Shown: piece after piece, positions 7,743 through 41,140 of the stretch | Layout of the letters: each line of letters starts with the position of its first letter | Position numbering within the stretch: the first letter of the stretch is position 1 | Notes under the pieces: generated by a model | What the model saw: only the letters and a program-made list of their open reading frames with translations | The model's database searches: none | Told to the model about the DNA's origin: nothing | Position numbers and translations under genes: made by a program | From: Mycobacterium sp. | Lineage (GTDB): Bacteria; Actinomycetota; Actinomycetes; Mycobacteriales; Mycobacteriaceae | Length of the DNA: 64,000 bases | Assembly: GCA_003987775.1 (NCBI GenBank) | Contig: RXJD01000021.1 | Span: forward strand, 221,464-285,463 | Direction: 5' to 3'

Positions 7743-7789
7743 TCTTGCTGCTACCCCTCACACCAGCAGCCGACCGTATGTCGGCATGC

Positions 7790-7806
7790 CATACATATGT
7801 ATAGCA
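7790..7806 (-). promoter_or_regulatory. Putative TetR operator, copy C
   Basis: On the plus strand the site reads CATACATATGTATAGCA; its core ATACATATGTAT is a perfect 12-base palindrome, so orientation is ambiguous. It is 47 bases upstream of the SDR start at 7742 and just beyond the stop of the TetR gene, so it serves the SDR-ferredoxin-P450 operon. Confidence 0.55.
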
Positions 7807-7845
7807 TAACCGGGCAGCCGGTTGCGCAGGTGCGCATTCAGCCGG

Positions 7846-8487: not shown

Positions 8488-8535
8488 AGTCACCTCCCTT
8501 TTTGCGTTCCCTGAGCATAATCGCACCCACCTGTT

Positions 8536-8552
8536 TGTACGGATGTATAGTG
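8536..8552 (+). promoter_or_regulatory. Putative TetR operator, copy D
   Basis: TGTACGGATGTATAGTG, the most divergent of the five copies but keeping TAC-N4-GTATAG. It lies 49 bases upstream of the TetR start and 16 bases before copy E, so it is the likely autoregulatory site. Confidence 0.5.
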
Positions 8553-8568
8553 AGACGGATATGCCTAC

Positions 8569-8585
8569 TGTACAGTCGTATAGCA
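8569..8585 (+). promoter_or_regulatory. Putative TetR operator, copy E
   Basis: TGTACAGTCGTATAGCA, the best match to the consensus built from all five copies. It is 40 bases upstream of the GTG of the P450 at 8626-9810; the TATAGC part could also act as the -10 box. Confidence 0.6.
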
Positions 8586-8625
8586 GCCTGATGACTGCGG
8601 TTGGTGCGCCGATCAAGGAGATCAA

Positions 8626-9810: not shown

Positions 9811-9833
9811 CTGTACGGCGAATGGAACTCCCG

Positions 9834-12037: not shown

Positions 12038-12139
12038 GATGCCCTGGCCCGCACAGGCCACTTCTGGCGCGCTCGGACCGTCCGCTTCCTGAACCTGGCG
12101 CAGATACTGGGCGAGAACAGCGGGAGCCGGAGGTGGTCG

Positions 12140-12334
12140 ATGCACGTCACGGTGGATTACGAAGTGTGCGAGGGCCACGGTCAGTGCCTACTGGCCGCAC
12201 CGGAGGTGTTCGACCTTCCGGACGGGGCCGACCAGGTGGTGGTGCTCGACCCGGATCCCCCGGAAGCCCAGCGCCAGTTGGTGATTCAGGCGGCGGCGAT
12301 GTGTCCTGCGCAGGCGATCCGAATCCTCAACTGA
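12140..12334 (+). CDS. [3Fe-4S] ferredoxin
   Basis: A 64-residue ferredoxin with Cys10, Cys16 and Cys55 (CX5C...CP) and His13 at the variable position, parallel to the one at 6764-6961. The middle is more acidic and includes DLPDGADQVVVLDPD. GGAGG lies seven bases before the ATG. It is separated by about 100 bases from the SDR upstream, which is probably read through from the P450 operon at 8626. Its stop overlaps by 8 bases the 3' end of the convergent response-regulator gene. Expected role: electron delivery to the P450 at 8626-9810 or the one at 14427-15698. Confidence 0.92.
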   Translation: MHVTVDYEVCEGHGQCLLAAPEVFDLPDGADQVVVLDPDPPEAQRQLVIQAAAMCPAQAIRILN

Positions 12335-13001
12335 GCCGGTCGGTTTCGGCAACCTCGTCGAGCATCCCGAAGCGCCCGGCGAGCGCCGCGGCGGCAATGC
12401 GGTTGCCCACCCCGAGTTTGTGCAGCAGTGCGGCGACCATACGTTTGGCGGTGCGTTCGGATACCAGCATGCGGTGGGCGATGTCGCCGGTTTCCATGCC
12501 GGTCGCCAGCAGCGTCCAGAGCCGAACATCCTGGGCGCTCAACGTTTCCAGCAGCGCTGACGGAGGCTTACGCGTATTGCTCAGTAGTGCGTCGAGCAGG
12601 GCTCCGTCGATCACCCGCAGTCCCTCGGCGATCGTCCACAACGGGCCGGCCAGCGCCTCGGGGCGCGCCGTCTTGGGCAGGAACCCATCGGCGCCGGCGC
12701 GCAACGCCTCCTCGGCCAGCGCGAGGTCGTCGGTGCCGGACAGGGCCAGAATCCGGGTGCCAGGGTGGCGTGCCTTGATGTGCCGGATCGCAGCCACCCC
12801 GCCCAACGGTGGCATGGAGAGGTCGATGATCGCCACGTCTGCCTTGCACCGGGCGACCAGATCGGCGGCCTCCTCCACGTATGTGGTCTGGCCCCCCACC
12901 GTGAACATTTCGCCCCATTCGCGGGTGAGCAACAGGGCCAGGCCCTGCGCGAACAGCTCGTGGTCGTCGACGATGACCACCACGTACGGCGAGCGGGTCA
13001 T
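12327..13001 (-). CDS. NarL/LuxR-type response regulator
   Basis: A 224-residue response regulator. Receiver domain at residues 5-120 with the acidic pair Asp12-Asp13, phospho-acceptor Asp60 (IIDLSMPP) and Lys110. A LuxR-type helix-turn-helix at about 160-215 (LSAQDVRLWTLLATGMETGDIA) is a little degenerate compared with NarL, with LSAQD in place of LTxRE. The ATG at 13001 has a TAGCAT -10 box ending 7 bases before it, so a leaderless transcript is likely. Divergent from the histidine kinase gene, whose start is only 24 bases away; the two should be a cognate pair. The target genes may be the flanking P450 operons (inference). Confidence 0.9.
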   Translation of the reverse strand: MTRSPYVVVIVDDHELFAQGLALLLTREWGEMFTVGGQTTYVEEAADLVARCKADVAIIDLSMPPLGGVAAIRHIKARHPGTRILALSGTDDLALAEEALRAGADGFLPKTARPEALAGPLWTIAEGLRVIDGALLDALLSNTRKPPSALLETLSAQDVRLWTLLATGMETGDIAHRMLVSERTAKRMVAALLHKLGVGNRIAAAALAGRFGMLDEVAETDRLS

Positions 13002-13008
13002 TGCCGTG

Positions 13009-13014
13009 ATGCTA
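13009..13014 (-). promoter_or_regulatory. -10 element of leaderless response-regulator promoter
   Basis: TAGCAT on the minus strand, 7 bases before the ATG at 13001, fits the mycobacterial TANNNT box of leaderless transcripts. It lies within the 24-base divergent gap to the histidine kinase gene. Confidence 0.5.
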
Positions 13015-13025
13015 GACCCAACCCT

Positions 13026-14324
13026 ATGGTCAGCCGGGTGAGACCGCTCGATCAGCTCAAGACGGAACTCGGCGACGGGGACTACGGACTGGCCCGCACC
13101 GTCGTGGCGGTACGGGTCGCCGTGGTGATCTCGATCGGTGCGCTGTTGGCGATCGGACCCTACTGGGTCCGTGAACACACCGCGGCCACGGTGATGGTGC
13201 TCGGCGGGGCGATGGCCTACGCGGCGGCACTGATGGCCTATCCGCAGCCGGAGGTTCGCCGCACTCGGTACGCGTGGCTGGTCACCTCCTTCGACTCCGC
13301 GTTCACCCTCGCACTCATCGCATTGAGCGGCGGCGTCTACAGCCCGGTCGTGTCGGTGCTGGCGCTCGTGGTCATCGCTTCCGCGGCCCGGTTGTCGTTG
13401 GCTGAAACCCTGCTCGCGGCAGTGCTTTTGGGCGCGGCCTACGTTCCCGTGGCACTCACGTCATCGCCACCGCAGCCCGTCACGGCGGCGCCGGCACTGC
13501 TGGCCGGCTGGTCGGCGCTGTATCTGCTGTTCGTCGCGATCATCACCGCCGGGTTGTCGGCACTTGCCGAGCGGGAACACCGCTCCCGGCTGACGGCGCT
13601 GGTCGAAGCCGAAGCCGAACATGCCGCAGCCGAAGAGGAACGCGACCTGAGGGCGCGTCTGCTGCGCTCCTACCAATCTCAGCAAGACGGACTGCAGGTG
13701 CTGGTACACGAATTCCGCACGCCGGTGACGTCTTTGGAGGCACTGACCGAAGCGCTCACTTCCGCGCAACCGATGTCCGATGATGACCGGGAGACCAGTC
13801 TGCAGCTGGTGGCGCGGCACGTGCACCACATCGGCGACATGCTCGACGCCTTGTCCGACGTCGCCCTGAGCCGGCGCCCGACGTTCTCGACCGGCCGGGT
13901 GCGCCGCGTCGACATGGCTGAGGTGATCCTTGCTGCCGCCGACGCCGTGGGCCTGGCACCACCACGGTTGCGGCTGAGCATCGAAGCCGGTGCCGTGTCG
14001 GCGGACGCGCAGGGGTTGCGGCGCGTGCTGACCAATCTGCTGGAGAATGCCGCGCGGCACGGCCGGGACGAGCCCGTCGATGTCACGTGCGCACGCGACG
14101 GCGAGGAGCTGATCGTCGCGGTCGCCGACCGCGGCCCGGGCATTCCGGCCGACAGCCTCGGCGAGCTGACCACCAAATATGTCAGTCGCGGCGGCCAGCG
14201 CGGCACCGCAGGTCTCGGCCTCTGGATCGTGCAGCAGATCGTCGAGGCGATGGGCGGCCGCGTCGATTTCGCCGCTCGCGAGGGTGGCGGGCTGGTCGCC
14301 ACCTTCCGCGCCCCGGTGGGCTGA
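13026..14324 (+). CDS. Sensor histidine kinase
   Basis: A 432-residue membrane kinase. The first 180 residues hold about five or six hydrophobic segments (for example VVISIGALLAIG, VSVLALVVIASAA, LYLLFVAIITAGL) with almost no extracytoplasmic loop, so it probably senses something in or near the membrane. A charged, coiled-coil-like linker at 182-215 leads to the H-box with His228 (VHEFRTP), the N-box with Asn337 and Asn341, DRGPG at 368-372 and GTAGLGL at 393-399, all intact. Start at the ATG at 13026, with no clear ribosome-binding site; a GTG four codons later is possible. It pairs with the divergent response regulator. Confidence 0.9.
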   Translation: MVSRVRPLDQLKTELGDGDYGLARTVVAVRVAVVISIGALLAIGPYWVREHTAATVMVLGGAMAYAAALMAYPQPEVRRTRYAWLVTSFDSAFTLALIALSGGVYSPVVSVLALVVIASAARLSLAETLLAAVLLGAAYVPVALTSSPPQPVTAAPALLAGWSALYLLFVAIITAGLSALAEREHRSRLTALVEAEAEHAAAEEERDLRARLLRSYQSQQDGLQVLVHEFRTPVTSLEALTEALTSAQPMSDDDRETSLQLVARHVHHIGDMLDALSDVALSRRPTFSTGRVRRVDMAEVILAAADAVGLAPPRLRLSIEAGAVSADAQGLRRVLTNLLENAARHGRDEPVDVTCARDGEELIVAVADRGPGIPADSLGELTTKYVSRGGQRGTAGLGLWIVQQIVEAMGGRVDFAAREGGGLVATFRAPVG

Positions 14325-14426
14325 CGGCGTTGGCCCACGCAGGCCAGTGGTTGGCACGCGCGCCGGTGTCGATCACGTCCCCCTCCGACCAGCATGGGTG
14401 CCATCGGGCGAGAAAGGGACCCTCGG

Positions 14427-15698
14427 ATGACCGCACCCACCACCAACCCCACCTATAAGGACATTGACCTGAGCGCGCGTGCGTTCTGGGCCAAACCCCC
14501 CGAGGACCGCGACGCGGCCTTCGCGGTGCTGCGTGCGGAGAACCCGGTGCCGTGGAGCCGGCCGGCGGAATCGGACCTGCTGCCACCCGAACTCAACAAC
14601 CGGGGCTTCTGGTCGCTGACCAAACAGGACGACATCCGGATGGCCAGCCGGCACCCGGAGATCTTCTCGTCGGCCCAGGGCATCACGATGGAGGACTTCG
14701 CCCCCGAGGCGGTCGAGATCGCGCAGTCGTTCATCGCGATGGACGCTCCCCGGCACACCCAGTTGCGCGGGATCACCACCGAGGCGTTCAAGCCCAAAAA
14801 CGTGCGGCGGCTGGAGAGTTGGATCCGCGGCCACGCGCACGACCTGGTCAGCGAGATGGCACATCTGGGCGAGGGTGACTTCGTCCAACTGGTGTCGGTG
14901 AAGCTGCCCGGCCGGATCTTCGGGAGCTTCTTCGGGCTGCCCGAAGGCGATCTGCGCGACAAGGCCGTCAGCGCCGCCCAGCGCCTGGTGGGCTGGACCG
15001 ACCCGAACATCCGCGGCGAGCAGAGCGAGCTGGAGCTGTTCATGGGCGCCGTGCTGGATCTGCACGCGGTGGCATCGGAGTTGATCCCGCAGCGGCGGGC
15101 CAATCCCGGTGACGACCTGATGACTTGGATGGTGCAGGCCGAGTTCGACGGCAAGAAGATGACCGACGACGAACTGCGGGCCTTCTTCGTTTTGATGGGC
15201 GTGGCGTCCAACGACACCACCCGGCATGCCTCGGCGCACGCGATCGCCGCTCTCTCGAAGTTTCCCGACCAGCGCGCGCTGCTGGTCGAGGACGTCGAGG
15301 GCCGGGTCGGCACTGCGGTGGAGGAGGTGCTGCGCTGGGGATCACCGTTGCTCCACATGCGCCGCACCGCCACCAGGGATGTCACCGTGCGCGATGCGGA
15401 GATCAAGGCGGGCGACAAGGTGGTGCTGTGGTACTACTCCGGCAACCGTGACGAGGACGTCTTCGACGATCCGCACAGCTTCAATATTCTGCGAAACCCC
15501 AACCCGCACATAGCGTTCGGCGGCGGTGGTCCACACTTCTGTCTCGGTGCCGCGCTGGCGCGCACCATGCTCAAGGCGCTGCTGACCGAGGTCTACACCC
15601 GTATCCCCGACATCTCGGCAACCGAACCTCAGTATGCGCTGGCCAATTTCATCAACGGCATCAACAGCCTGCCCGCGACCTGGACGCCGGAACGATGA
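14427..15698 (+). CDS. cytochrome P450
   Basis: A 423-residue P450 from a different subfamily to the others here. Seen: I-helix GVASNDTTR, with Asn replacing the usual acidic residue; K-helix EEVLR; haem motif AFGGGGPHFCLG. The N-terminus (DLSARAFWAKPPEDRDAAFAVLR) resembles mycobacterial P450s of the sterol or fatty-acid side-chain group, but a CYP number cannot be given. GGGAC lies upstream of the ATG. The stop overlaps the start of the alcohol dehydrogenase gene by 4 bases (ATGA), so a hydroxylation followed by alcohol oxidation is the natural reading. The ferredoxin at 12140-12334 is a candidate partner. Confidence 0.94.
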   Translation: MTAPTTNPTYKDIDLSARAFWAKPPEDRDAAFAVLRAENPVPWSRPAESDLLPPELNNRGFWSLTKQDDIRMASRHPEIFSSAQGITMEDFAPEAVEIAQSFIAMDAPRHTQLRGITTEAFKPKNVRRLESWIRGHAHDLVSEMAHLGEGDFVQLVSVKLPGRIFGSFFGLPEGDLRDKAVSAAQRLVGWTDPNIRGEQSELELFMGAVLDLHAVASELIPQRRANPGDDLMTWMVQAEFDGKKMTDDELRAFFVLMGVASNDTTRHASAHAIAALSKFPDQRALLVEDVEGRVGTAVEEVLRWGSPLLHMRRTATRDVTVRDAEIKAGDKVVLWYYSGNRDEDVFDDPHSFNILRNPNPHIAFGGGGPHFCLGAALARTMLKALLTEVYTRIPDISATEPQYALANFINGINSLPATWTPER

Positions 15699-29262: not shown

Positions 29263-30120
29263 TCAGTGCTTGTCGGACCACCGGAATACTCCAAGACAGG
29301 CGACCAGCCCGCCGACGCTCCATGCCGTCAGGACGAAGAATATGTTCCAGTGCTCCCAGCTGCCCGCCGGTTCGAAGACGACCATGTTCGACGGCAACAG
29401 CACCGAACGGAAGCCCTGAGCCATCCATTTCACCGGAAAGATGGAGCCGATCGTCAACATCCACGCCGGCAACACCATCAGCGGGACATAGGTTCCCGAG
29501 AGAAACTGCAAGCCCACCGCCGGACCATTGGTGAGGACGGCGGCCGACACCGCATTGCTGGCGAAGTTGCTGATGAAGATGCCCAGCAACGAGCAACTGA
29601 TGATGCCCAGGACGAACACCCACGTGAGCGTGAACCATCCGAATACGGTTGTCGGCAGCCGCAGTTTGAAGATTAGGACGCCCACCGACAGCAACACCAC
29701 AGCCTCGGCGAGACTCGCGATGGCAACCAGCAGAATCTTTCCGATGAAGTAGGAGGTCGCCGTCGTGGGCGTTCCGCGAAGTCGCCGCAGGGCGCCGGTG
29801 TCACGGTCGGCGGCGATGCTGATTCCCAGGTTGATGAAGGATGTCGAGAGGATGCCGTAGGCGAGCATGCTTGCTGCGATCACCGCGCCGGTGCTGGTAT
29901 CGCTGTCGGGGAGTTTCGCGGAGAAGATCGAACCCAGCAAGATGCAGATGACGGCCGGCATCGAAAAGGTCAGCGCCACCTGCTCGGGCCGGCGGTAGAA
30001 CATCTTCAACTCCGGGACGACGCGCGAGAGCCCGATGCGCAGCGGCGACGGCAGCGCCGAACCCGGCGGGGCCGCGCGGTGTCTGGTCGGCCGGGTGCTT
30101 CTGGCGTGGTCGATGGCCAT
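29263..30120 (-). CDS. ABC-2 type transporter permease
   Basis: A 285-residue permease of the ABC-2 (DrrB-like) type. After a basic cytoplasmic N-terminus of about 45 residues it has about six hydrophobic segments (for example VALTFSMPAVICILLGSIFSA, VFVLGIISCSLLGIFISNF). The charged loop DRDTGALRRLRGTPT between TM segments is typical of DrrB/NodJ proteins. The start overlaps the stop of the ATPase gene (ATGA). Together they form an exporter, very probably for the product of the PKS genes just upstream. Confidence 0.92.
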   Translation of the reverse strand: MAIDHARSTRPTRHRAAPPGSALPSPLRIGLSRVVPELKMFYRRPEQVALTFSMPAVICILLGSIFSAKLPDSDTSTGAVIAASMLAYGILSTSFINLGISIAADRDTGALRRLRGTPTTATSYFIGKILLVAIASLAEAVVLLSVGVLIFKLRLPTTVFGWFTLTWVFVLGIISCSLLGIFISNFASNAVSAAVLTNGPAVGLQFLSGTYVPLMVLPAWMLTIGSIFPVKWMAQGFRSVLLPSNMVVFEPAGSWEHWNIFFVLTAWSVGGLVACLGVFRWSDKH

Positions 30121-30971
30121 CAGGCACGACCGATCAGCTGCAGGTAGGCGTCTTCGAGCGTTGGCCGGGTCACGGTCAGCTGACTCAACTCCACGCCGTC
30201 CACGGATCGCTGCCGGATCAGCTCAGTCGGGTGATCCGTCTCCTCCACGTGGACCCGGTCCCCCTCGATCCAGCTGACGGTGGCCGCCGAGTTCACATAT
30301 CCGGTCAGCTGGGCCGGTGAGTCGACCGCGACCAGCCGCCCGTCGGCGATCACTGCCACCCGGTTAGCCAGTGCCGCAGCCTCCTCCAGGTAGTGGGTGG
30401 TGAGCAGAATGGTCGTGCCGTCGGCTGCCAGCAGCCTGATGAGATCCCAGAACTGGCGCCGCGCCTCCGGGTCGAAGCCGGTCGTCGGCTCGTCGAGAAA
30501 GAGCACCTGAGGTTCGGCGATGATGCCGAGCGCGACGTCGAGCCGCCGGCGCTGCCCGCCGGAGAGGGTCCGCACTTTCGAACCCGAGACCGTGCCGAGC
30601 CCCACCAGGTCGAGCACCTCGCCCGGAATGCGGGCCTTCCCATAACATTTCGCGAACATATGCATGGTTTCGGACACTGTGAGCATGCCGAAGTCACTGG
30701 CCTCCTGCAGCACGATGCCGATCTTGGCCCGCCACGCCCGGCCCGCCGTGCCGGGGTCCTCGCCTAGCACGCGCACGTCACCGGAATCCCGTTTGCGGTG
30801 GCCTTCGAGGATTTCGATGGTGGTCGACTTGCCGGCACCGTTGGGTCCGAGGATTGCGAATACTTCGCCGTACGCGACATCGAGGTCCAATTCTCGCACG
30901 GCGTGGATCTGCCCGTATGTCTTGGACAATCCGCGGACGTAGACCGCGGGCGGGCGCTCTGCGGTGATCAC
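30120..30971 (-). CDS. ABC transporter ATP-binding protein (DrrA-like)
   Basis: A 283-residue ATPase: Walker A GPNGAGKST, Q-loop VLQEASD, signature LSGGQRRRLDVALG, Walker B VLFLDEPTTGFDP and the switch His in LLTTHYLEEA. The C-terminal extension is of the DrrA type. A GTG start overlaps the PKS stop by 4 bases (GTGA), so translation is coupled to the synthase, which strongly suggests it exports the polyketide. Confidence 0.95.
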   Translation of the reverse strand: MITAERPPAVYVRGLSKTYGQIHAVRELDLDVAYGEVFAILGPNGAGKSTTIEILEGHRKRDSGDVRVLGEDPGTAGRAWRAKIGIVLQEASDFGMLTVSETMHMFAKCYGKARIPGEVLDLVGLGTVSGSKVRTLSGGQRRRLDVALGIIAEPQVLFLDEPTTGFDPEARRQFWDLIRLLAADGTTILLTTHYLEEAAALANRVAVIADGRLVAVDSPAQLTGYVNSAATVSWIEGDRVHVEETDHPTELIRQRSVDGVELSQLTVTRPTLEDAYLQLIGRA

Positions 30972-33900
30972 GGCTGCGTCCCGTCAGCTTCCTGCCCGGC
31001 GGGTTCGCCTTCCAGTTCGGCCAGCAGTGCCCGCAGTTCGGCATCGGAGAGCTGTTCGAGCATCCGGTCGACGTCGCCGTCGGCGGGCGCATCAGGCTCT
31101 GCGGGCTGATCGGTGAGAGCCTCGGAGCCGGGCAGCGCCAGCTCGGCAAGCACTCGAACAGCCAGCGAGTTGATGCTCACGCCCCGGAGTAGTTCCAGCA
31201 CCGGCAGGTCGATCGCGAACATGGTATTGATCCGAACCCGGAAGTCCATGGCCATCATCGAGTCGAGCCCGATGTCGTTGAGGGTGTCATCGACTCCGAT
31301 GTCGGCGGCCGCGATGTCGAAGACCGTGGCGGCAATCTGACGAACGTGGTCTACGACGACGTCCAGCCTGTCCGCTTCGGCAATTCCGCCGAGGAACTCG
31401 AGTATCGACGCATCCGCATCGGAGGGATCCGGTGCCGTGTCGGCGGTGCCCAGATCCGAGAACATCGACGGCAACTGGCCGCTGAGGCCGACGCTGCGCG
31501 CGCGCTTCCAGTCCGCACTGATGGCGACGACGTTGGCCACCTTCTGGTTGATCAGCCGATCGAGGATCCGGGTGCCCGCGCCCGGCGTGATGAGCTCAAT
31601 CCCCCGCTGCGCGTACAGCTTTTCCAGCTTGAGTTCTTCGACCATACCCACCGACCAGGGACCCCAACCGATGGTGATCGCGGGCAACCCTTGGGCCTGC
31701 CGGTAGTGTGCGAACGCGTCGAGGAAGGCGTTCGCAGCGGCATAGTTGCCCTGCCCGGGCGAGGCGATGACCGATCCGGCCGACCCGAACATGACGAAGA
31801 AATCAAGGTCGCGACCGGCAAAAGCGTTGTGCAGCACCCGGGTGCCGTCGATCTTGGGAGCCATCACCTTGGCGAAGTCGGCTTCGCTCATGTTCACCAG
31901 GAGCTGGTCGTCGACAGATCCGGCGGCGTGGACGATGCCGCGGACCGGTCGGCCTGCGGCCCGGGTGTGGCTGCTCAGCCACGACTGCACCTGGTCGGCA
32001 TCGGTGATATCGACACTGGCCGTGATCACCTGCGCGCCAAGGCGTTCGACTTTCCGGATGGTGTCGACGGCCGCATAGTGCGGGCTGTCCTCGGTCAGCG
32101 TGGGCCAATGGTCTCTCGGGGGGAACTCGCTGCGGCTCAGCAGTGCGATATGGCGCGCCCCGCGCTCGGCGAGATAGGCGGCCACGGTGCGCCCGAGCGC
32201 CCCGGCGCCACCTGTGACGACGTAGGTCGCGTCCTGCCTCAGTTTGGTGGGGAAGGGTTTGGTCAGGTTGGCGCACAACCGAAGCCGCGGAACGAAGGTG
32301 GTGTCGCCGCGCAGCGCCACCTGGTCCTCGCGGTCGGTCGTCAGGAGGTGATCGCAGATACGGCCGGCTGTCGGGACCAGATCGTCAGCATCGTCGATGT
32401 CGATGAGGCCGCCCCATTGACCGGCGAATTCCTGATGGCCGATGACGCGGCCGAGGCCCCAGATGGCGGCCTGGTCGATGGCCAGGCTCTGGGTGCCGGG
32501 TGCCGGTTGCGCGTTCGCGGTGACCAGATACAGGCGCGGTCGCGCCGTGTCGAGTTCAGCGATCGCCTTGACCAGGTGCAGGACTGCGAAAACGCCTATC
32601 TCGTTGTTCGTCTCCGCCGCGTCGTCAAGGTCCAACGGCCAGCAGTTGACGACGCCGGCGAGGTCACCGTCGCTTTGCTGGTGCGTCGTGAAGAGCTCGC
32701 GGAGCTGCTCTGGCCGTCGATGATCGACCGCGTATCCCCCGTCGATCGCGGCGAGTGCGCCGACATCGCGGCGCACCACCGCCTGAACACGCTGGCCACG
32801 AGCGCGGAGCTGTTCGACAAGCGCGTTCCCGACACCACCGTTGTCGACGAGAACAAGCCAGGACAGCGCATCAGGCGCATGCTCGCCCTCTGCCAGGATG
32901 TCTTCGCTTGTCACCCATTGGATTTCGTAGAGCCCCTTGTCGATGCGTTCCGCCGTCATACGCGATGAGGCAGTAAGCGACTCGACGGTGAAGCCCTTGA
33001 AGACCGCCAGCGTCTCACCGAAATCGTCGGTGACGGTGATGTCGCTTTCGATCTGTTCCCTGGTGGCCGACACGACGTGGACGTGAGCGGTCATATTCTC
33101 TTGCGGCGGACCGTAGATGACGCTCTGCCGGATCCGGGTCGGCAGGAACGGGCTGTCAGCCGCCTCCTGCCCGACGGAGTTGGCGCCGAACAAGGTCTGG
33201 AAGGCACCGTCGATGAGTGCCGGATGGAATCGGAACCGGCCGATTTCCTCGGCGATCGGGGGCCGGACGGTGATCTGGGCCTCGGCCCAGCCATCACCGC
33301 ACCTGACCTTGCTGACGGACTGGAACGCATCGCCGTACGCGAACCCGATCGCCTGGGTGCGGGCATAGAAGTCCTCGCCACTGAGCGTGGTGATGAGTTC
33401 CGCATCCTGCGGAATATCGCCGCGCGCAGCGGACTTCGGCAGCGTGTTCAGCTCCGCGGTCGCCGTCACCGTCCACTTCACGTCCCCGTCGGCTGTTGCG
33501 GTGAACGCGGCGAACTCGAGGGCGCCGGTGTCCTGGTTGAGGGTGGTCCGCAGAATCGGATCACAGGTTTCGTCGAGGATCACAGCGCGCTTGAGCACCA
33601 GGTTCTCGACACAGTGGTCGGTCGATCCGTAGGCCTCCTCGGCCGCCGCCAACGCCATTTCGATGAACACCGCGCCGGGCACAATGGTGCTGCCCTGCAC
33701 CTGGTGGTCGGCCAGGAACGGGACTGCGGTGGTGCTCAACTCGGCTTCCCAGGTGGGGTGCACGGCGCTGACCGGTTGTCCCAGCAGGGGATGCACCGGG
33801 TTGTAATGCAGGTCCTCCACCGCTTCCTGGGTTTCATTCCAGAAGCGTTTGGACTGCCACGGGTAGGTGGGCAGTTTCAGCAGGCGCGCTCCCCCTCGCG

Positions 33901-36514
33901 GGTAGAGGTTGTCCCATGCGATGGAGTGGCCGTGACTGTGCAGTGCGCCAATACAATTCATCAGCGTGTGCGCGTCGTCGTCGTCGCGCCGCTGGGACGC
34001 CATGACGACCACGTCGGTCCGGTTCTCGGCAGACTGGGTTCCGGCGATCTCGATGATCGAGGAGGCCAGCACGGGATGCGGACCCAATTCGACGAAGTGG
34101 GTGTAGCCATCTTCGAGCATGCGCCGCGCCGCGGGTTCGAAAAGGACGGTGGCTCTGGTGTTCTGCCACCAGTAGGCGGCACCGGCCGCGTAGCCGTCCA
34201 GGCGCTCCCCGGTGACCGTGGAGTACAGCGGCACGGTTCCCGCGCCGGATGACAGCCCGTCGAGGGAGTTGTAGAGGTCGTCTTTGACCGCGTCCATGTA
34301 GTGGGTGTGGTACGGCACCCGCACGTTCAGGAACCGGTTGAAGACCGTGGCTTCCTCCAACTGTGCGGCGATGTCCTCCAGCACCTCGCTGTCGCCGGCG
34401 ATGGTCACCGCCGAGGGGCTGTTGATCGCGGCGATGGAGACCCGCCGGCCGATCTCGTCGCGGGCCTTATCGTCGATCGTCTGCATCAGCACATCGGCGC
34501 CCAGTCCGACTGCGAGCATCCGGCCCAATCCGCTGGTGCGTTGCTGCAGACGACTCCGGTGGTAGATCACCTCCACGGCCTGCTCGAAGGTGAGCAGACC
34601 CGCGAGGTGGTGGGCCGCCACTTCGCCCGCGCTGTGCCCGACTATCGCGTCGGGGGTGATCCCGAATTCTCTGAGTTGTTCGGCAAGCGCGACCTGGATG
34701 GCGAAGTTCGCGGGCTGGGCGAACTCCGTCTCCGCCATCCGGGAGCCGGCTTCGTCGGCTCGCAGTTCGTCCAGCAAAGACCAGCCGGCGTGCCGGGACA
34801 GCTCGCGATCGCTTCGCCTGATGCTGTCGGTGAAGGCGGGGAAGACGTCCAGCAAGCCCCGGCACATCTTCCACCACTGCGGGCCCATGCCGGTGCAGAC
34901 GAAGGCCAGCTTCGGTGTGCTCGGCTGGATGCGGTTGGCCGCGATCTGCCCTCCGTCGGCGAGCGCCTGCAGCTGCTCTCGGGCGTCGCCGACGCTGCTC
35001 GCGACAAGGGCGCGGCGATAGTTCAGATGCGACCGGCGCCGGCCGAGGGTGTAGCCGAGATCGGGCAGCGTCACGTCGGGATGGACGCTGAGGTGCTGCG
35101 CCAGATTGCGTGCGGTCGCCAGCAGGGCCTCTTCGTTGCGCGCCGAGATGGGTAGGACCGCCAGCGGCAGGCGCGCGGGTTCGGCGGGCACTGTGGCCGG
35201 CGCCGGGGGCTCAGCCAACACGGCATGGGCGTTGGTACCGCCGAAGCCGAACGAGTTGACCCCGGCCAAGCGCCGTTGGCTCGCGGGGAACTCGCGACCG
35301 GTCCGTGGGATGTCGATCTTGAGTTCGGCCAGCGGGGTCGGCCCACTGGGATTCTTCAGGTGCAGGTTGGCCGGAATGAACCCGTGCTTGAGCACCAGCG
35401 CCGCTTTGATCAGCCCGGCCACACCGGCGCCCGCCTCGAGGTGGCCGATGTTCGTTTTGACCGAGCCGATCAGCAGCGGGTCGGTCGCCGGCCGCTCAGC
35501 GGCGAGCGCGCCGGCCAGCGCCCGCATTTCGACCGGGTCGCCGACCGGTGTGCCCGTGCCGTGCGCCTCGACGTAACCGATCTCGTTCGGATGAACGCCG
35601 GCCCGTTGCAGGGCGGTGACGATCGCCGCCTGCTGCGCCTCTTCGCTGGGGACGGTGATGCTGTCGGTGTGGCCGTCCTGCGAGACCGCCGTACCGAGGA
35701 TCTGGGCATAGATCTCGTCCCCGTCGCGCAGTGCCTGTTCGAGGGGTTTGATGACGACGACGGCACCGCCTTCGCCGCGCGCGTAGCCGTCCGCGGACGC
35801 GTCGAAAGCCTTACAGCGTCCGTCGGGACTGAGGAACCCGCTCTTGGACTCGGCGATCGCCGTGTTCGGTCCGATCATGATATTGACGCCGCCGGCCAGC
35901 GCCAGATTGCTTTCACCGTTCCAAATGCTCTGCGCGGCAAGGTGTACCGCCACGAGTGAGCTCGAACACGCCGTGTCCACCGTCATGCTCGGACCGCGGA
36001 AGTCGTAGGTGAACGAGATCCGGTTGGCGAGCATCGTCATCATCATTCCGGTGGCGGAATGCGTCTTGAACCGGTAACGGCTGGTGCGCCCCTGATTCTG
36101 CAGGAGTTGGTAGTCCAGCGTGAAGCCGCCGATGAATACGGCGACGTCGGTGCCGGCCAGCTCTTCCGCCGGAATCCCGCCGTCCTCGAGGGCCTCCCAC
36201 GTGGTCTGCAACATCAGCCGCTGCTGCGGATCGAGCAGGTTCGCCTCGCGTGGCGAGATGCCGAAGAATTGGGGGTCGAATTGGTCGATCTCGCTGAGGA
36301 ACCCACCTCGGCGGGTGACCATCTTCCCGACCTTCGCCGGATTGGGATCGTAGTATTTCGCGGCATTCCAGCGTGTTTCGGGAACGATACGGGTGGCGTC
36401 GGTGCCGCTGCACAGTAAGTTCCAGTAGTCTTGCGGAGTATTGGCACCGCCCGGAAAGCGGCACCCGATTCCGACGATCGCCAGAGGTTTTCGAGTGCCT
36501 TGTTCGGCGCGCAT
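30968..36514 (-). CDS. Type I polyketide synthase, KS-AT-DH-KR-ACP
   Basis: A single-module, 1848-residue synthase. KS about 10-435: Cys183 (DTACSSS), His318 (EAHGTGTPVGDP), His358 (KTNIGH). AT about 537-830: Ser628 (GHSAGE); at the specificity site it reads VPYHTHYMD, neither HAFH nor YASH, so the extender is not predictable. DH about 905-1185: His937 (HQVQGSTIVP) and Asp1102 (HPALIDG), both intact. KR about 1428-1610: GGAGALG, Ser in FGSAGS, Tyr in GQGNYAAANA; VDD at about 1534 suggests a B-type KR. ACP about 1715-1790 with Ser1752 (IGLDSMMA). There is no ER, TE or release domain. A C-terminal acidic helix (LEQLSDAELRALLAELEG) follows. The order is that of 6-methylsalicylate-type iterative synthases, so iterative, partially reducing work is likely (inference). 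Start at 36514, with AAAGG 9 bases upstream; ATG at 36520 is the alternative. Confidence 0.95.
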   Translation of the reverse strand: MRAEQGTRKPLAIVGIGCRFPGGANTPQDYWNLLCSGTDATRIVPETRWNAAKYYDPNPAKVGKMVTRRGGFLSEIDQFDPQFFGISPREANLLDPQQRLMLQTTWEALEDGGIPAEELAGTDVAVFIGGFTLDYQLLQNQGRTSRYRFKTHSATGMMMTMLANRISFTYDFRGPSMTVDTACSSSLVAVHLAAQSIWNGESNLALAGGVNIMIGPNTAIAESKSGFLSPDGRCKAFDASADGYARGEGGAVVVIKPLEQALRDGDEIYAQILGTAVSQDGHTDSITVPSEEAQQAAIVTALQRAGVHPNEIGYVEAHGTGTPVGDPVEMRALAGALAAERPATDPLLIGSVKTNIGHLEAGAGVAGLIKAALVLKHGFIPANLHLKNPSGPTPLAELKIDIPRTGREFPASQRRLAGVNSFGFGGTNAHAVLAEPPAPATVPAEPARLPLAVLPISARNEEALLATARNLAQHLSVHPDVTLPDLGYTLGRRRSHLNYRRALVASSVGDAREQLQALADGGQIAANRIQPSTPKLAFVCTGMGPQWWKMCRGLLDVFPAFTDSIRRSDRELSRHAGWSLLDELRADEAGSRMAETEFAQPANFAIQVALAEQLREFGITPDAIVGHSAGEVAAHHLAGLLTFEQAVEVIYHRSRLQQRTSGLGRMLAVGLGADVLMQTIDDKARDEIGRRVSIAAINSPSAVTIAGDSEVLEDIAAQLEEATVFNRFLNVRVPYHTHYMDAVKDDLYNSLDGLSSGAGTVPLYSTVTGERLDGYAAGAAYWWQNTRATVLFEPAARRMLEDGYTHFVELGPHPVLASSIIEIAGTQSAENRTDVVVMASQRRDDDDAHTLMNCIGALHSHGHSIAWDNLYPRGGARLLKLPTYPWQSKRFWNETQEAVEDLHYNPVHPLLGQPVSAVHPTWEAELSTTAVPFLADHQVQGSTIVPGAVFIEMALAAAEEAYGSTDHCVENLVLKRAVILDETCDPILRTTLNQDTGALEFAAFTATADGDVKWTVTATAELNTLPKSAARGDIPQDAELITTLSGEDFYARTQAIGFAYGDAFQSVSKVRCGDGWAEAQITVRPPIAEEIGRFRFHPALIDGAFQTLFGANSVGQEAADSPFLPTRIRQSVIYGPPQENMTAHVHVVSATREQIESDITVTDDFGETLAVFKGFTVESLTASSRMTAERIDKGLYEIQWVTSEDILAEGEHAPDALSWLVLVDNGGVGNALVEQLRARGQRVQAVVRRDVGALAAIDGGYAVDHRRPEQLRELFTTHQQSDGDLAGVVNCWPLDLDDAAETNNEIGVFAVLHLVKAIAELDTARPRLYLVTANAQPAPGTQSLAIDQAAIWGLGRVIGHQEFAGQWGGLIDIDDADDLVPTAGRICDHLLTTDREDQVALRGDTTFVPRLRLCANLTKPFPTKLRQDATYVVTGGAGALGRTVAAYLAERGARHIALLSRSEFPPRDHWPTLTEDSPHYAAVDTIRKVERLGAQVITASVDITDADQVQSWLSSHTRAAGRPVRGIVHAAGSVDDQLLVNMSEADFAKVMAPKIDGTRVLHNAFAGRDLDFFVMFGSAGSVIASPGQGNYAAANAFLDAFAHYRQAQGLPAITIGWGPWSVGMVEELKLEKLYAQRGIELITPGAGTRILDRLINQKVANVVAISADWKRARSVGLSGQLPSMFSDLGTADTAPDPSDADASILEFLGGIAEADRLDVVVDHVRQIAATVFDIAAADIGVDDTLNDIGLDSMMAMDFRVRINTMFAIDLPVLELLRGVSINSLAVRVLAELALPGSEALTDQPAEPDAPADGDVDRMLEQLSDAELRALLAELEGEPAGQEADGTQP

Positions 36515-36694
36515 GTTCATCCTTTCCCGCCAACAATCCGTCGCGAGCAGGCCGCCGCGGGAGGTTGGTTCTGTGATCTGTGGTTCGCTTGCGGACGTCT
36601 GCCGCTTACCGGAGCAGTCGGCGATGGAGTGCACTGACAACCGTGCCTTCCACGCCGTAAGCCACACCCCATGCTGCGCGGATCCTCAATCGGT

Positions 36695-38464
36695 TCAACT
36701 GAATTCGAGTGCGGGCGCGGCGCCGACGATCCAATCCCGGCCGATCGGGTTGGTCGGCTGCTCGTGGCGGTAGACCGATCGGAGCTCCCGCAGCAGTGAA
36801 TCCCGCTGCCAGGCCTGCACTTGTTGCATGACGTCGTCGTCGGAGAACCTCTCCGACTTCTCCGCGATGACCGTCTCCACCAGCTGCCCGGCCACCTGGC
36901 GGAGCAGTCGGGTGTTCGCGTCGAATTGAGCGGTGAAATCGGCGGCTCGTCCCATCATCGCGGTGTGCAGCGAGACCATGAAATTGTGCGGCGCATACAA
37001 ATCGACAAACGCCGAAGAAGGGTGCCAATCCTCGACCGCCGCCCATTCCCGGAAGAAGCTCTGCATGCGGTTGCTGAGGGCGATCATGCCTTCCAAATGC
37101 GGGACCACCCCGGGATCGTCGGCCACACTGACGAACCGACCATTGCTGTAAAGCAGACCGATGAAGCCCCAGTAGAAAGCGATATCCCAGATCACTTTGG
37201 CCGACATGACGGCCGGAGATCCCATGAGCGGATATTGATCGCAGTAGATGTTGAGCCACATGTCGGTCAGCGACCGGAAGAGGGAGTCGCTTATCCCGGC
37301 TCGTGCGGCGACATCTTCGCCATCCAGTTCGCGGGAAATCATGTCGGTGATCAAACCATTACCGATGGCGATGAGGTCCAGACCCGAGGAATACAGCGGG
37401 TCGAGGAATACTCCGGCATCGCCGGTGACACACCACCGCTCGCGACCGTCATATACCTTGGTAGCGCCGTGGCTGTAATTCTTCATCACCCGGAAGTCTT
37501 TGATCAGGTGATCCAACTCGGCCAGGACATCCGCGCACTGCGGTTCGTGCCGGCGCAGCCAGGCTTTTGCTTTCGCGAGCGTATTGAAGTCGTCGAATGC
37601 ATGAAATGCGGGGTCGGCGACAATGCCGACGCTGGTGGCTCCGGAGGCAAGTCTGATGAGCCATACCCAATATCCCTCGCCCATCAAATGATTGGTGGAC
37701 AGTGACCGGTCGCCTTCAACCAGGCGCGCTTGCCAACTGGGGTCATCGCTCCACTGGCCGATATCGATGTCGGCGGCTACGCGCAGCCACACGGCATTAC
37801 AGTTGTGCTCGTTGGGCCGCCGCAGCTCCAGTTGCCGGGGCAATGCCCGATTTCGCCCCGACGCGTCGACAACCCAACGAGCAGTCTTCTGAGTGATCGC
37901 CTCACCGGTCTGGAAAGAAATGGTGTGCGGCTGACTTCCCTGGCCGAATTCGACGGATCGCACGCGCCCATTCTCGATATCCACACCGGCGGACTGGCAG
38001 CGCCGATTCAATTCGTTTTCCAGCCGGCCGCGGTCAATTTGATAGGTGACCTGCGGCACGAAAGACGAGCTGCCCAGCTCCATCCGCCGAGCGATATCGG
38101 TGTTGGTGTCATGCGAGAAAAACATGCGCAGACCCATTTTCCGGAGCTGCGCGGTGTGTAAGTGATCGGCAAGGCCGATGCGTTCCCGCAGGTAGTGCGC
38201 GGAAATCTCGACCGTGGACTCGCCCACGGTGTGGGTGATCTCCGGGACGGGGCGAACGTTGGGCTCGATGATGATCACCCGGGTCTGCGGGCGGGCGCTG
38301 CGGAGCTCCAGCGCGAGCGTCATGGCAGCCGTGCCGCCGCCGATGATGGCCACGTCGTGGTCGGAGGTCGCATCGTTGGCCTGTGACAGCTGGGACTTGA
38401 TCTTCTGAGCGAGGGCCTCCCGTGCCTCCGAGCTCAGTTGAGACAGCTGCGCTCGCACGTCCAC
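36695..38464 (-). CDS. Flavin-dependent halogenase-like oxidoreductase
   Basis: A 589-residue FAD enzyme. The FAD motif is IIGGGTAAMT (GGGTAA at 42-47, where halogenases have GGGTAG). HTVGEST follows at 78-84 and Lys109 (LRKMGLRMFF) stands where halogenases have their catalytic Lys. The WxWxIP site reads WVWLIR, so the Pro is replaced. The second FAD block is TGDAGVFLDPLYSSGLD. Family: tryptophan-halogenase-like, which covers both true halogenases and flavin hydroxylases. The first 30 residues are a charged helix (LSQLSSEAREALAQKIKSQL) resembling PKS/NRPS linker helices, suggesting a carrier-bound substrate. A GTG start at 38464 follows GGGGGA. It lies 180 bases upstream of the PKS and should tailor its product. 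Confidence 0.85.
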   Translation of the reverse strand: MDVRAQLSQLSSEAREALAQKIKSQLSQANDATSDHDVAIIGGGTAAMTLALELRSARPQTRVIIIEPNVRPVPEITHTVGESTVEISAHYLRERIGLADHLHTAQLRKMGLRMFFSHDTNTDIARRMELGSSSFVPQVTYQIDRGRLENELNRRCQSAGVDIENGRVRSVEFGQGSQPHTISFQTGEAITQKTARWVVDASGRNRALPRQLELRRPNEHNCNAVWLRVAADIDIGQWSDDPSWQARLVEGDRSLSTNHLMGEGYWVWLIRLASGATSVGIVADPAFHAFDDFNTLAKAKAWLRRHEPQCADVLAELDHLIKDFRVMKNYSHGATKVYDGRERWCVTGDAGVFLDPLYSSGLDLIAIGNGLITDMISRELDGEDVAARAGISDSLFRSLTDMWLNIYCDQYPLMGSPAVMSAKVIWDIAFYWGFIGLLYSNGRFVSVADDPGVVPHLEGMIALSNRMQSFFREWAAVEDWHPSSAFVDLYAPHNFMVSLHTAMMGRAADFTAQFDANTRLLRQVAGQLVETVIAEKSERFSDDDVMQQVQAWQRDSLLRELRSVYRHEQPTNPIGRDWIVGAAPALEFS

Positions 38465-38484
38465 AGATCCCCCTTCGCAGTGCG

Positions 38485-38510
38485 TATGGCGAAGTTGCTT
38501 AATAGTTAAG
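38485..38510 (-). promoter_or_regulatory. Possible operator upstream of the halogenase-like gene
   Basis: CTTAATAGTTAAG at 38498-38510 is an inverted repeat (CTTAA-TAG-TTAAG) of the MarR-like kind, 33 bases upstream of the GTG at 38464. The adjoining TATGGCGAAGTTG (38485-38497) matches the repeat unit at 28682-28694 at 12 of 13 positions. Confidence 0.35.
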
Positions 38511-38605
38511 GAGGTTACACGAAATCAAGCTCCGGCAAACCGAGAAGCCGAGGTAGCGCACGGAACTGGACGGGTAGTACAGCAACCGCAGCAAGGTGCG
38601 CGACA

Positions 38606-39904
38606 TCAGCCGGTGAGCTCTGCGGTGTCGTCCGAGGGGCTGGTCGACGCCGCGTCCGGGGCGGGCAGGTCGTCGACGCGGTACCTCCCGTAGACCCACT
38701 CGAATATCGGGGTGGCCATGAGGGTGGTGACGATGGCCACAAGTACCAGAATGGTGAAAAGCGCGGGCGTGATGATGCCCGCCTGCAGGCCGATATTGAG
38801 CAGAATCAGCTCGATCAGTCCGCGGGCGTTCATCAACGATCCGAGTGCGACCGATTCTCGCCACGGAACCTTCTTCAGCCGCGCCGCGACGGAGCATGCG
38901 ACGCCTTTCCCGGCGATGGACACCAGCAGAATGCCCAGCGTCACCGCCCACAGTGTCGGGCTGTTCAGCAGGCCGATCTGAGTATTCAGACCCGAATAGA
39001 CGAAGAACAGCGGCAGCAGAAAAGTGGTGACCAGTGGCTCGAGCATCGCGGTGAGCCGGTCGGCGAAAAAACCGGACGGCATGGCCACGCCGAGGATGAA
39101 TGCGCCGAATATGGCATAGATGCCGATCGTGTCGGTGAACCACGCACACGCCATGAGCAAGATGAGGACGGTGGTGAGCACCGGCGGGGTGATCGTATTC
39201 TGCCGTTCGGACATGGTGCCGAGCACACTGAACATTCGTCGTCCGAATGTCAGCAATAACACGCTGTACAGGATGCCGCCGATTATCGCGACCGCGGCCA
39301 ATACCGGATTGCCCCGGTGAATGGCGAGCACTATTGCCAGGATGCACCAGGACAGCGCATCGTCGGCCGCACCGCATGCCAAGGCGAGTGTGCCCAGCGG
39401 CGTTCCGGAAAGGCGTTGTTCGAAAATGATTCGGGCAAGCATCGGGAAGGCGGTGGTCGCAATCGACGCGCCGAGAAACATCATCGCCATGACCAGGGTG
39501 ACGCTTTTGTCGAAATAGATTCCGGCCGACAAGAGCGGCATGGCGAGCAACGCTCCCAGAGCGAGCGGCGTGAAAATGCCCGCCGCGGAGACCGCAACCG
39601 CCGTGCCCGCCCGGTGTTTGATGAGGTTGACGTCGAAATTGAGCCCGATGAGAAACATGTAAAGCACCAGGCCGATCTGCGCCATGGTGTACAGCACCGT
39701 ATTCGCCTGCCCAGCCGGAAATATGTGGTGTTGTATTCCAGGAGCGATGCGACCCAGCAATGACGGTCCCAGCAGCACGCCGGCGATCATTTCGCCCACG
39801 ACCTGGGGTTGACCGATGCGCCGGGCCAAGAACCCCACCAACCGGCACGTTCCGAGAATGACGGCCAGTTCCAGGAAGAAATGAATGGCGGTGGCTGCGG
39901 GCAT
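38606..39904 (-). CDS. CPA2 family cation:proton antiporter
   Basis: A 432-residue membrane protein with about 12 or 13 helices. The ion-binding Asp181-Asp182 (CGAADDALSW) and the unwound-helix region (GEMIAGVLLGPSLLG) are those of the KefB/NapA-type CPA2 antiporters. There is no C-terminal TrkA-N domain, so it is the short form. The ATG at 39904 has GAGG upstream. It is the first gene of the minus-strand run that leads to the halogenase-like enzyme, PKS and ABC genes. Such antiporters occur with polyketide clusters as self-protection or proton-driven export parts; the role here is inference. Confidence 0.9.
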   Translation of the reverse strand: MPAATAIHFFLELAVILGTCRLVGFLARRIGQPQVVGEMIAGVLLGPSLLGRIAPGIQHHIFPAGQANTVLYTMAQIGLVLYMFLIGLNFDVNLIKHRAGTAVAVSAAGIFTPLALGALLAMPLLSAGIYFDKSVTLVMAMMFLGASIATTAFPMLARIIFEQRLSGTPLGTLALACGAADDALSWCILAIVLAIHRGNPVLAAVAIIGGILYSVLLLTFGRRMFSVLGTMSERQNTITPPVLTTVLILLMACAWFTDTIGIYAIFGAFILGVAMPSGFFADRLTAMLEPLVTTFLLPLFFVYSGLNTQIGLLNSPTLWAVTLGILLVSIAGKGVACSVAARLKKVPWRESVALGSLMNARGLIELILLNIGLQAGIITPALFTILVLVAIVTTLMATPIFEWVYGRYRVDDLPAPDAASTSPSDDTAELTG

Positions 39905-40114: not shown

Positions 40115-41140
40115 TCAATCAGGGTTCGGGCGCTTGATTGCCGTGTCGCGCAGATACTCCCGCGGCGACATTCCTTTCCAGCGGCGGAAAGCGGCGGTGA
40201 AAGCGGGCGTATTGCTGTAGCCGACACGCCGCGCGGTTTGTTCGACGGTGACCCCATCGGCGAGCAGGTCCTCAGCCCGCTGCGCACGCACCTCGTCGAG
40301 CACCTGACGAAACGACGTCTGCTCGTGAGCCAGATGTCGCCGCAGAGTCCGCGAGGTGACATGCAACTGGGCGGCGACGTCCTCGATCGTCAGCACGTCC
40401 TCACGATCGAGTGCGTCACGAACCCGTCCGGCCACACCGGCCCGCGCCGCACGGCCCTCGAGCAGCCGGCGGCACTCGTCGGCGGTAGCGGCCGCGGCGT
40501 GCGGGTCGGCCTGCGGTAGACCATGGGCGAGCAGCACCACGGGGATCGCGAAGACATTCATATCGGACCCGAACACCGGTGTCACACCGAAGAATTCGAC
40601 GAAAGGTTCGGTGGCCGCCGGCGCCGGTTGACGCAGATACGTGACTGCGGGTTCGGTGAGCAGGCCGGTGGCCTCGCGGGCCACGGTGACCGTCGAAGTC
40701 AGTTCCCGTAGCGCGAGAAACTGACGCACATCCGCGGGCACCGCCCGATCGTCGAAGACGATGCGAACCTCGTCTTGACCGGAGTCCGCCACGACATCAC
40801 AAAAAGCCCAGGTGAGCTGCACGAACCGTAGACCCGCCTCGAGCGCATCCCAGCCGGTGCGGCTACTGGCGAGCGTCGCGCCCCACGCGCCGTGGGTGGT
40901 GAGGTGGTACCGGCGCCCGGCGTCCAGGCCCAGCCACTCGACGCCGGGCAACAGCCGTTGCAGATTGCGAATGATGCGCAGCTCGTCGGCTGCCGAGATC
41001 GAGCTGTCCGGCTCGGCGATCTCCTCGGCACTCAACCCGGTGCCCGTCAGACAGGCCGGCGCGGACAAACCGTGGTCAGCACCCACCCGCAAAAGTACTG
41101 CGGCACCGGCGGATGCCCGCGGGTGGTCCCATCGAACCAA
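40115..41140 (-). CDS. AraC family transcriptional regulator
   Basis: A 341-residue regulator of the OruR/ArgR-like AraC branch: a large N-terminal ligand domain (SAPACLTGTGLSAEEI, HGAWGATLASS) and a C-terminal double helix-turn-helix at about 240-335 (TIEDVAAQLHVTSRTLRRHL, RVGYSNTPAFTAAFRRWKGMSP). TTG start at 41140 with GGAG nine bases upstream. It lies between the PKS run (same strand) and the divergent epimerase gene; in this family the divergent gene is the usual target, but the PKS operon is also possible. Confidence 0.9.
   Translation of the reverse strand: MVRWDHPRASAGAAVLLRVGADHGLSAPACLTGTGLSAEEIAEPDSSISAADELRIIRNLQRLLPGVEWLGLDAGRRYHLTTHGAWGATLASSRTGWDALEAGLRFVQLTWAFCDVVADSGQDEVRIVFDDRAVPADVRQFLALRELTSTVTVAREATGLLTEPAVTYLRQPAPAATEPFVEFFGVTPVFGSDMNVFAIPVVLLAHGLPQADPHAAAATADECRRLLEGRAARAGVAGRVRDALDREDVLTIEDVAAQLHVTSRTLRRHLAHEQTSFRQVLDEVRAQRAEDLLADGVTVEQTARRVGYSNTPAFTAAFRRWKGMSPREYLRDTAIKRPNPD

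Follow-up and report, generated by a model that had tools for sequence, protein, structure and literature searches.

Polycyclic tetramate macrolactam (PoTeM) clusters, such as those for ikarugamycin, heat-stable antifungal factor (HSAF) and frontalamide, carry a synthase with the domain order ketosynthase, acyltransferase, dehydratase, ketoreductase and acyl carrier protein (KS-AT-DH-KR-ACP), and excerpts of PMC11724479 describe polyene chains as made by their iterative polyketide synthase (PKS)/nonribosomal peptide synthetase (NRPS) proteins. Among flavin-dependent halogenases (FDHs), a section of PMC8407142 lists PltA, Mpy16 and CndH as the carrier-protein type and CmlS as the free-substrate type. 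For the polyether ionophore tetronasin, passages of the review PMC10863045 attribute self-resistance to an ABC ATPase and permease (TnrB2/TnrB3) and hold that antiporter mutations compensate for ionophores, one of them in nhaA of Mycolicibacterium aurum. Here we describe a five-gene locus at 29263-39904, on the minus strand of a 64,000-nucleotide stretch of a Mycobacterium sp. genome (contig RXJD01000021.1, positions 221,464 to 285,463; the whole stretch is called the window below). It encodes, in this order, a CPA2-type antiporter, an FDH-like enzyme (HAL), a KS-AT-DH-KR-ACP synthase, an ABC ATPase and an ABC-2 permease. We tentatively read it, with a probability of about 0.45, as a cassette for a single halogenated, iteratively made polyketide that would be exported, with the antiporter protecting the producer.

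The genome is 7.29 Mb in size, and its same-genus relatives and the nearest named loci are Mycobacterium. The features of the locus are as follows.

38606..39904, minus strand: CPA2-type cation/proton antiporter, 432 aa, membrane domain only (PF00999, 190 bits; no other Pfam domain matched)
36695..38464, minus strand: HAL, FDH-like enzyme, 589 aa (conserved FDH motifs; profile matches PltA, CmlS and ChlB4)
30968..36520, minus strand: single-module PKS, KS-AT-DH-KR-ACP, 1850 aa, putatively iterative (Pfam domains, start codon, KS tree, active-site residues)
35198..36490, minus strand: KS domain, residues 60-490 of the open reading frame (ORF), with Cys234, His369 and His409 (Pfam and catalytic residues)
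33929..34903, minus strand: AT domain, residues 589-913, with Ser679 and the loop VPYH, not HAFH (Pfam and catalytic residues)
32966..33793, minus strand: DH domain, residues 959-1234, with His988 and Asp1153 (Pfam and catalytic residues)
31652..32230, minus strand: KR domain, residues 1480-1672, with the NADPH motif, Ser1629, Tyr1642 and Asn1646 (Pfam and catalytic residues)
31160..31348, minus strand: ACP, residues 1774-1836, with Ser1803 (Pfam and catalytic residue)
30120..30971, minus strand: ABC transporter ATPase, DrrA-like, 283 aa (TIGR01188, 238 bits, cut-off 312; 4-base overlap with the PKS)
29263..30120, minus strand: ABC-2 permease, DrrB-like, 285 aa (PF01061, 81 bits; TIGR01247, 52 bits, cut-off 223; 1-base overlap with the ATPase)

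All five genes are open, and their Pfam matches (Na_H_Exchanger; Trp_halogenase; ketoacyl-synt, Acyl_transf_1, PKS_DH_N/PS-DH, KR and PP-binding, in this order; ABC_tran; ABC2_membrane) bear out the initial annotation, which had described one minus-strand run of these gene types in this order. It had also joined both ABC genes to the PKS by 4-base overlaps; this is right for the PKS and ATPase (GTGA), but the ATPase and permease share a single base (TGATG). The PKS ORF opens at 36667, the likelier start being an ATG at 36520 that is preceded by GGAAAGG. Counted from this start the gap between HAL and the PKS is 174 bp, and that between the antiporter and HAL is 141 bp. Comparison with the Mycobacterium gordonae locus gave dN/dS values of 0.086, 0.110, 0.165, 0.105 and 0.097 for the five genes, indicating purifying selection on each of them. 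A sigma-70 scan returned no promoter, and the terminator count matched the shuffled mean (7 vs 7.3).

Relatives of HAL were collected from named genomes, 80 of 106 stretches being kept as encoding one, and 60 of these loci were treated as mycobacterial. Among the 60 is contig L053, titled an Ilumatobacteraceae metagenome-assembled genome (MAG), which carries a mycobacterial-type cassette (HAL identity 75%) and is probably a misbinned Mycobacterium contig. Eleven of the 60, L053 included, were excluded from the count of complete loci for having less than 3.5 kb upstream or 9 kb downstream of HAL. HAL, the PKS, both ABC genes and a CPA2 gene are all present in each of the remaining 49, with the CPA2 gene upstream on the same strand in 23, upstream on the other strand in 5 and downstream in 21. 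No flanking ORF family is shared by more than 7 of the 80 loci (1,066 non-overlapping ORFs of at least 100 aa, E<=1e-20), and the five genes are therefore a unit set in differing surroundings. We conclude that the locus is a discrete cassette and not a chance neighbourhood. An AraC gene at 40115-41140 was considered as a cluster regulator and dropped, no flanking family being widely recurrent. In M. frederiksbergense LB 501T (L079:11876-17383) the cassette PKS is broken into several ORFs, by frameshift or sequencing error.

Within a sample of 198 Mycobacterium genomes, one per species, HAL was detected in 56 (E<=1e-30). At the order level a profile search (E<=1e-60) found it in 16 of 397 genomes, all of them Mycobacterium, which is one of the 85 genera sampled. 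In the phylum-level sample 4 of 396 genomes had it, again all Mycobacterium. The parts of the cassette are of known kinds; among the open-access literature matches listed, with subscription papers mostly outside reach, we found no description of the cassette, its gene combination, its strict antiporter link or its halogenase clade, and no product for the cassette of these 56 genomes.

A CPA2 gene lies near HAL in all 56 HAL genomes, a constant partnership that the initial annotation missed, as it did the larger relatives with four HALs in Pseudonocardiaceae and Nocardia described below. In 37 genomes it lies just upstream of HAL, across a gap of 23-318 bp (32 on the same strand, 5 on the opposite one), and its product is 70-100% identical to that of the window; in the other 19 it lies beyond the permease, 7148-7453 bp from HAL, and the identity is 45-49%. 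The two types never occur together (0/56), two genomes having an extra, distant CPA2 elsewhere (28-29%). Since the window's genome has 7 genes of the Na_H_Exchanger Pfam family in total, chance adjacency of a CPA2 gene and HAL should be rare. The 142 genomes without HAL gave 19 CPA2 matches (E<=1e-20), of which 18 are at 25-40% identity and one is a 70-residue piece at 66% in genome G034. At that site (L132:7208-8117) permease residues 50-284 come directly after CPA2 residues 9-76 but in another frame, and the 18 kb read contains no match to HAL, the PKS or the ATPase; the piece is a deletion scar of the cassette.

A quick tree of the CPA2 proteins, with SH-aLRT support only, separates the downstream type together with those of two Pseudonocardiaceae clusters from the upstream type (support 97-99); the downstream type alone forms one clade with a support of just 70. 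On the HAL tree the downstream label has to change four times, and for three of these changes well-supported branches leave no alternative. Since there are two unlike antiporter lineages, whose position changed repeatedly on the HAL tree, and no complete locus is without one, the cassette has either swapped two antiporters several times or retained one or the other. Of the Asp pair at the putative ion site, the second residue is kept in 59 of 59 aligned copies, the window's included (36 upstream-type, 23 downstream-type); the first position is Asp in 25 of the 36 copies of the upstream type and in all 23 of the downstream type.

KefB and KefC protect against electrophiles by lowering cytoplasmic pH, and the cassette antiporter might act likewise, the product being an electrophile (a halo-enone, haloalkene or alkyne) and the antiporter lowering cytoplasmic pH, not repairing ion gradients. 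Membership of CPA2 and weak matches to the NCBIfam KefC and KefB models are in line with this (TIGR00932, 138 bits, is below its cut-off of 238), as is the presence in the larger relatives of DUF1702, which a figure legend of PMC7692728 draws among enediyne cluster genes. However, a Kef-like gated antiporter was set aside for the window's protein, in which PF00999 is the sole Pfam match and no regulatory domain was found; the Asp-Asp pair is present in most CPA2 copies, the nearest solved chains are Na+/H+ antiporters (5bz2/4bwz closest), and the mycobacterial cassette showed no DUF1702. We therefore regard the electrophile as rather unlikely. Preferred is a product that acts on ion or proton gradients, the constancy of the antiporter hinting that it disturbs the producer's own ion balance. 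The self-protective role proposed for the antiporter is based on its strict co-occurrence with HAL and on what the passages of PMC10863045 cited above say of the tetronasin ABC pair and of antiporter mutations.

HAL matches Trp_halogenase (42.7 bits, cut-off 21) and Lycopene_cycl (42.1 bits) about equally in Pfam, and its NCBIfam scores for CmlS (69.7 bits, cut-off 900) and the QhpG monooxygenase (63.9 bits, cut-off 240) are alike and far below the cut-offs. The first matches of the family profile among solved chains are PltA (7.5e-32), CmlS, ChlB4, the flavoprotein 3nix and Mpy16 (5buk); the 17 chains at E<=1e-10 comprise 14 named halogenase, CmlS ('alkylhalidase') and ChlB4, and one flavoprotein. 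An alignment of 24 rows, including the window's HAL and sequences from Actinomycetota, Planctomycetota, deltaproteobacterial MAGs and others, shows K109, W266, W268, I270, D355, P356, S359 and G361 to be invariant (WxWxI, DPxYSxG) and F353 to be kept in at least 90%. The same residues are kept in 59-60 of the 60 mycobacterial-type loci, the gaps falling in contig-truncated rows: WxWxI in all 60, and the Fx.Px.Sx.G motif and K109, presumably the FDH catalytic lysine, in 59 with one gap each. The distance from the Glu of GES to this lysine is 27 residues, as in PltA and ChlB4 (a count made by eye, the HMMER alignment being gapped there). The flavin motif is GxGxxA in the window's HAL and in 53 of the 60 copies and GxGxxG in 6, with one gap; GxGxxA is also listed for FDHs in part of a preprint (PMC12871659), and sections of that preprint and of PMC8407142 describe the roles of these motifs. 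Unlike PltA, Mpy16, ChlB4 and CmlS, whose motifs it shares and which are its best profile matches, HAL has 589 aa, arginine in place of the proline of WxWxIP (WxWxIR, in 59 of 60 copies), a score far below the NCBIfam CmlS cut-off, and a CPA2 gene alongside.

The arginine, and the near-equality of the QhpG and CmlS scores and of Lycopene_cycl and Trp_halogenase, would also suit an oxygenase (epoxidase or hydroxylase) making an oxygenated polyene, with the antiporter unrelated to halogen. Set against this are WxWxI, which according to a passage of PMC12871659 may prevent monooxygenation, the near-complete retention of the lysine and of the F-D-P-S-G motif, the predominance of halogenases among the solved chains matched, and a haloalkane-dehalogenase-like hydrolase in two larger relatives. 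We consider an oxygenase a serious competitor, although an unlikely one. Since the motifs are kept and PltA and Mpy16 are among the closest solved relatives, HAL is probably a halogenase, in keeping with the possible halogenation raised by the initial annotation, and its substrate is more likely a carrier-bound chain. Among the models and structures searched its clade appears to be without a characterised member. Two further HAL-family settings were seen: planctomycete loci (L110, L112, L114-L117) in which a tandem HAL-family pair comes after a large PKS, for which the KS search gave two KS domains, and a Gloeothece plasmid (L119:13974-17425) on which a cyanobacterial HAL-family gene adjoins an HpaB-type hydroxylase, the annotation showing neither a PKS nor a CPA2 within 14 kb.

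Every one of the 55 synthases with a length of 1750 aa or more, those of Pseudonocardiaceae L092 and of L053 included, retains the catalytic residues checked. Pfam matched no enoylreductase (ER) domain in the window's synthase. An IQ-TREE analysis of 43 KS rows and 434 columns, from which Eleftheria L123 and mycobacterial L079 were left out for want of a KS long enough, unites the KS of the window and six further mycobacterial cluster KSs (100/100), with that of the Pseudonocardiaceae cluster as their sister (99/98). The enclosing branch (100/100; 15 rows, 8 of them cluster KSs) also holds two Streptomyces PoTeM-type KSs, a Tsukamurella PKS-NRPS, Deinococcus, Persicobacter, and the own-genome synthase L002 with a Nocardia farcinica synthase. 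Streptomyces modular KSs fall outside it, as do L003-L008 of the window's genome; these and L002 were labelled as own-genome lipid synthases in the tree, of which only L003 and L005 are Pks2/MAS-like by Pks2 score. The comparison with iterative and modular clades that the initial annotation had proposed thus places the KS with PoTeM-type iterative synthases. Wherever the AT loop could be read, it is VPYH or VPFH in members of the KS group and HAFH or RAFH in ATs from elsewhere; one of three L125 ATs lacked a match to the pattern, as did L003, L005, L006, L007 and L008, and there was no reading for L004 or for the planctomycete synthases. L002 itself (L133:7032-13358, contig G000:C54) has a VPYH loop and adjoins an ORF resembling, by eye, an FAD-dependent monooxygenase.

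The two PoTeM-type synthases, L122 and L124 on Streptomyces plasmids, have the domains KS-AT-DH-KR-ACP-C-A-PCP-TE (the last four being condensation, adenylation, peptidyl carrier protein and thioesterase). Next to them come FAD oxidoreductases that Pfam assigns to the amine-oxidase fold family, and L124 has a sterol desaturase gene nearby. They were so assigned because domain order and neighbouring genes match those of PoTeM clusters as described in parts of PMC5705629 and PMC11724479. Plasmids L122 and L123, with their paired FAD oxidoreductases, were also considered as halogenase clusters and rejected, no HAL match being found there. The cassette shares with PoTeM-type synthases the domain order, the KS group and the AT loop. 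Unlike PoTeM clusters it has a halogenase and an antiporter, and no thioesterase or sterol desaturase gene; neither a fused NRPS part nor a phytoene-dehydrogenase homologue was found in the PKS ORF or the neighbouring ORFs scanned. Given a KS that groups with PoTeM-type synthases, intact residues in both KR and DH, and the lack of an ER match, a polyene chain is our best guess for the synthase product.

6-Methylsalicylate synthase (6-MSAS) has the order KS-AT-DH-KR-ACP, the analogy drawn by the initial annotation, so a 6-MSAS-type aromatic synthase yielding a halogenated salicylate might be considered. The shared order is not diagnostic, however, as the two PoTeM-type PKS-NRPSs of the same KS group have it before their NRPS part, and the KS relatives of recognisable cluster type are PoTeM-type (in a tree without 6-MSAS sequences); we think a salicylate improbable.

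The ATPase and the permease are both below the DrrA and DrrB model cut-offs, and the pair is DrrAB-like only; no solved chain matched the permease at E<=0.01. An ABC ATPase and permease are also present in the tetronasin system; in contrast to polyether ionophore producers, the cassette has a single-module PKS, and no epoxidase or epoxide hydrolase gene was seen. Mycobacterial envelope lipids are exported by pairs of the DrrAB type, and lipids are the products of many PKSs in these bacteria, which would fit a cell-envelope pigment or lipid, flipped outward by the ABC pair and remaining in the envelope, with CPA2 only tuning pH. This is improbable, since the KS lies outside the Pks2/MAS-like branch, no ER was matched, HAL is confined to 56 of the 198 genomes, and 30 further window ORFs scanned with Pfam, which are not every ORF of the window, included no FadD, Pap, MmpL or thioesterase. 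By the Pks2 model the window's PKS scores 1005 bits, below the cut-off of 2400, L003 scores 2269 and L005, above the cut-off, 2520; NF045894 (PKS_plus_SDR) is uninformative, as all seven other PKS stretches scanned in the genome also match it (E<=1e-200, 917-1404 bits, cut-off 1740). The view of the initial annotation that this is a secondary-metabolite-like cassette with its own transporter, lacking lipid partners, and not a known envelope-lipid locus, is upheld.

Larger clusters in Pseudonocardiaceae YIM PH 21723 and Nocardia amamiensis (L135-L140; G584:C35 and G586:C77) resemble the cassette in having CPA2, HAL and a KS-AT-DH-KR-ACP synthase, in the same order in the Pseudonocardiaceae locus, and differ in having four HALs, four DUF1702 genes, major facilitator superfamily (MFS) genes and a haloalkane-dehalogenase-like hydrolase (63% identical between the two); the DrrAB-like pair was unmatched in the stretches read. 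YIM PH 21723 has two CPA2 copies, each beside a HAL. Lentzea aerocolonigenes resembles these clusters in part, its short contig L098 carrying three HALs and CPA2 with no PKS in view. On a Janthinobacterium plasmid CPA2 (29% identity) and HAL (44%) stand in a row with a hydroxylase-domain gene, one for a hydrolase, and several for large PKSs. Because transporters vary across the relatives, being MFS in Nocardia and Pseudonocardiaceae, while CPA2, HAL and the PKS stay, these data suggest that it is the product, rather than the ABC pair, that calls for the antiporter. The four-HAL clusters possibly represent a related halogenated polyene or alkyne pathway. Cryptic iodination occurs in enediyne biosynthesis, although we found no paper on it, and enediyne PKSs have the order KS-AT-ACP-KR-DH-PPTase (phosphopantetheinyl transferase); the cassette synthase differs from these, with ACP last, DH before KR and no PPTase domain.

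Elsewhere in the window, 1286-15698 holds four cytochrome P450 ORFs, a nitroreductase-family ORF and a luciferase-like monooxygenase ORF, and 60151-62907 is a PE family gene with PGRS repeats in a stretch of 77% GC.

Taken together, the synthase would iterate with malonyl units, and its KR and DH, without an ER, would leave a conjugated polyene or polyenone chain. HAL may halogenate this chain while it is ACP-bound, as proposed from its closeness in sequence to halogenases such as PltA, which act on carrier-bound substrates. With no thioesterase, the chain could be released by cyclisation (for example to a pyrone) or by hydrolysis, and the DrrAB-like pair would export the product, perhaps a lipophilic weak acid or a reactive polyene disturbing ion or proton gradients, against which the CPA2 antiporter would protect the producer. 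Several observations weigh against this scheme. Besides the arginine of WxWxIR, the GxGxxA form of the flavin motif and the low, near-equal CmlS and QhpG scores, no flavin reductase gene was seen within the cassette. The inner branches of the KS group are weak (bootstrap 51-56), several of its synthases have no known product, the Tsukamurella PKS-NRPS KS is by identity slightly nearer the window's than are the PoTeM-type KSs, and the tree is made up of sequences without an experimentally characterised synthase. The hydrolase of the larger clusters scores 224 bits with the NCBIfam dehalogenase model, below the cut-off of 466; of the solved chains closest to it, the first two bear just the name alpha/beta fold hydrolase, and those called haloalkane dehalogenase come after them. 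The Janthinobacterium antiporter is distant from the window's, and CPA2 could serve pH or supply rather than protection.

If this scheme is correct, a halogenated polyketide is added to a genus known mainly for lipid polyketides, and a new flavin-halogenase clade acts on carrier-bound chains. The antiporter as self-protection would then be an immunity principle, which the strict co-occurrence makes directly testable, and a CPA2 gene adjoining a halogenase offers a handle for genome mining. A wider reading is speculative and unlikely to hold as a whole: mycobacteria may possess a family of halogenated polyene protonophores or ionophores whose producers survive only with a dedicated, interchangeable antiporter, an ion-exchange immunity gene built into a natural-product cassette. 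The same HAL family may drive the larger DUF1702/dehalogenase-like clusters, in which halogenated polyenes might be converted to alkynes or to products resembling enediynes.

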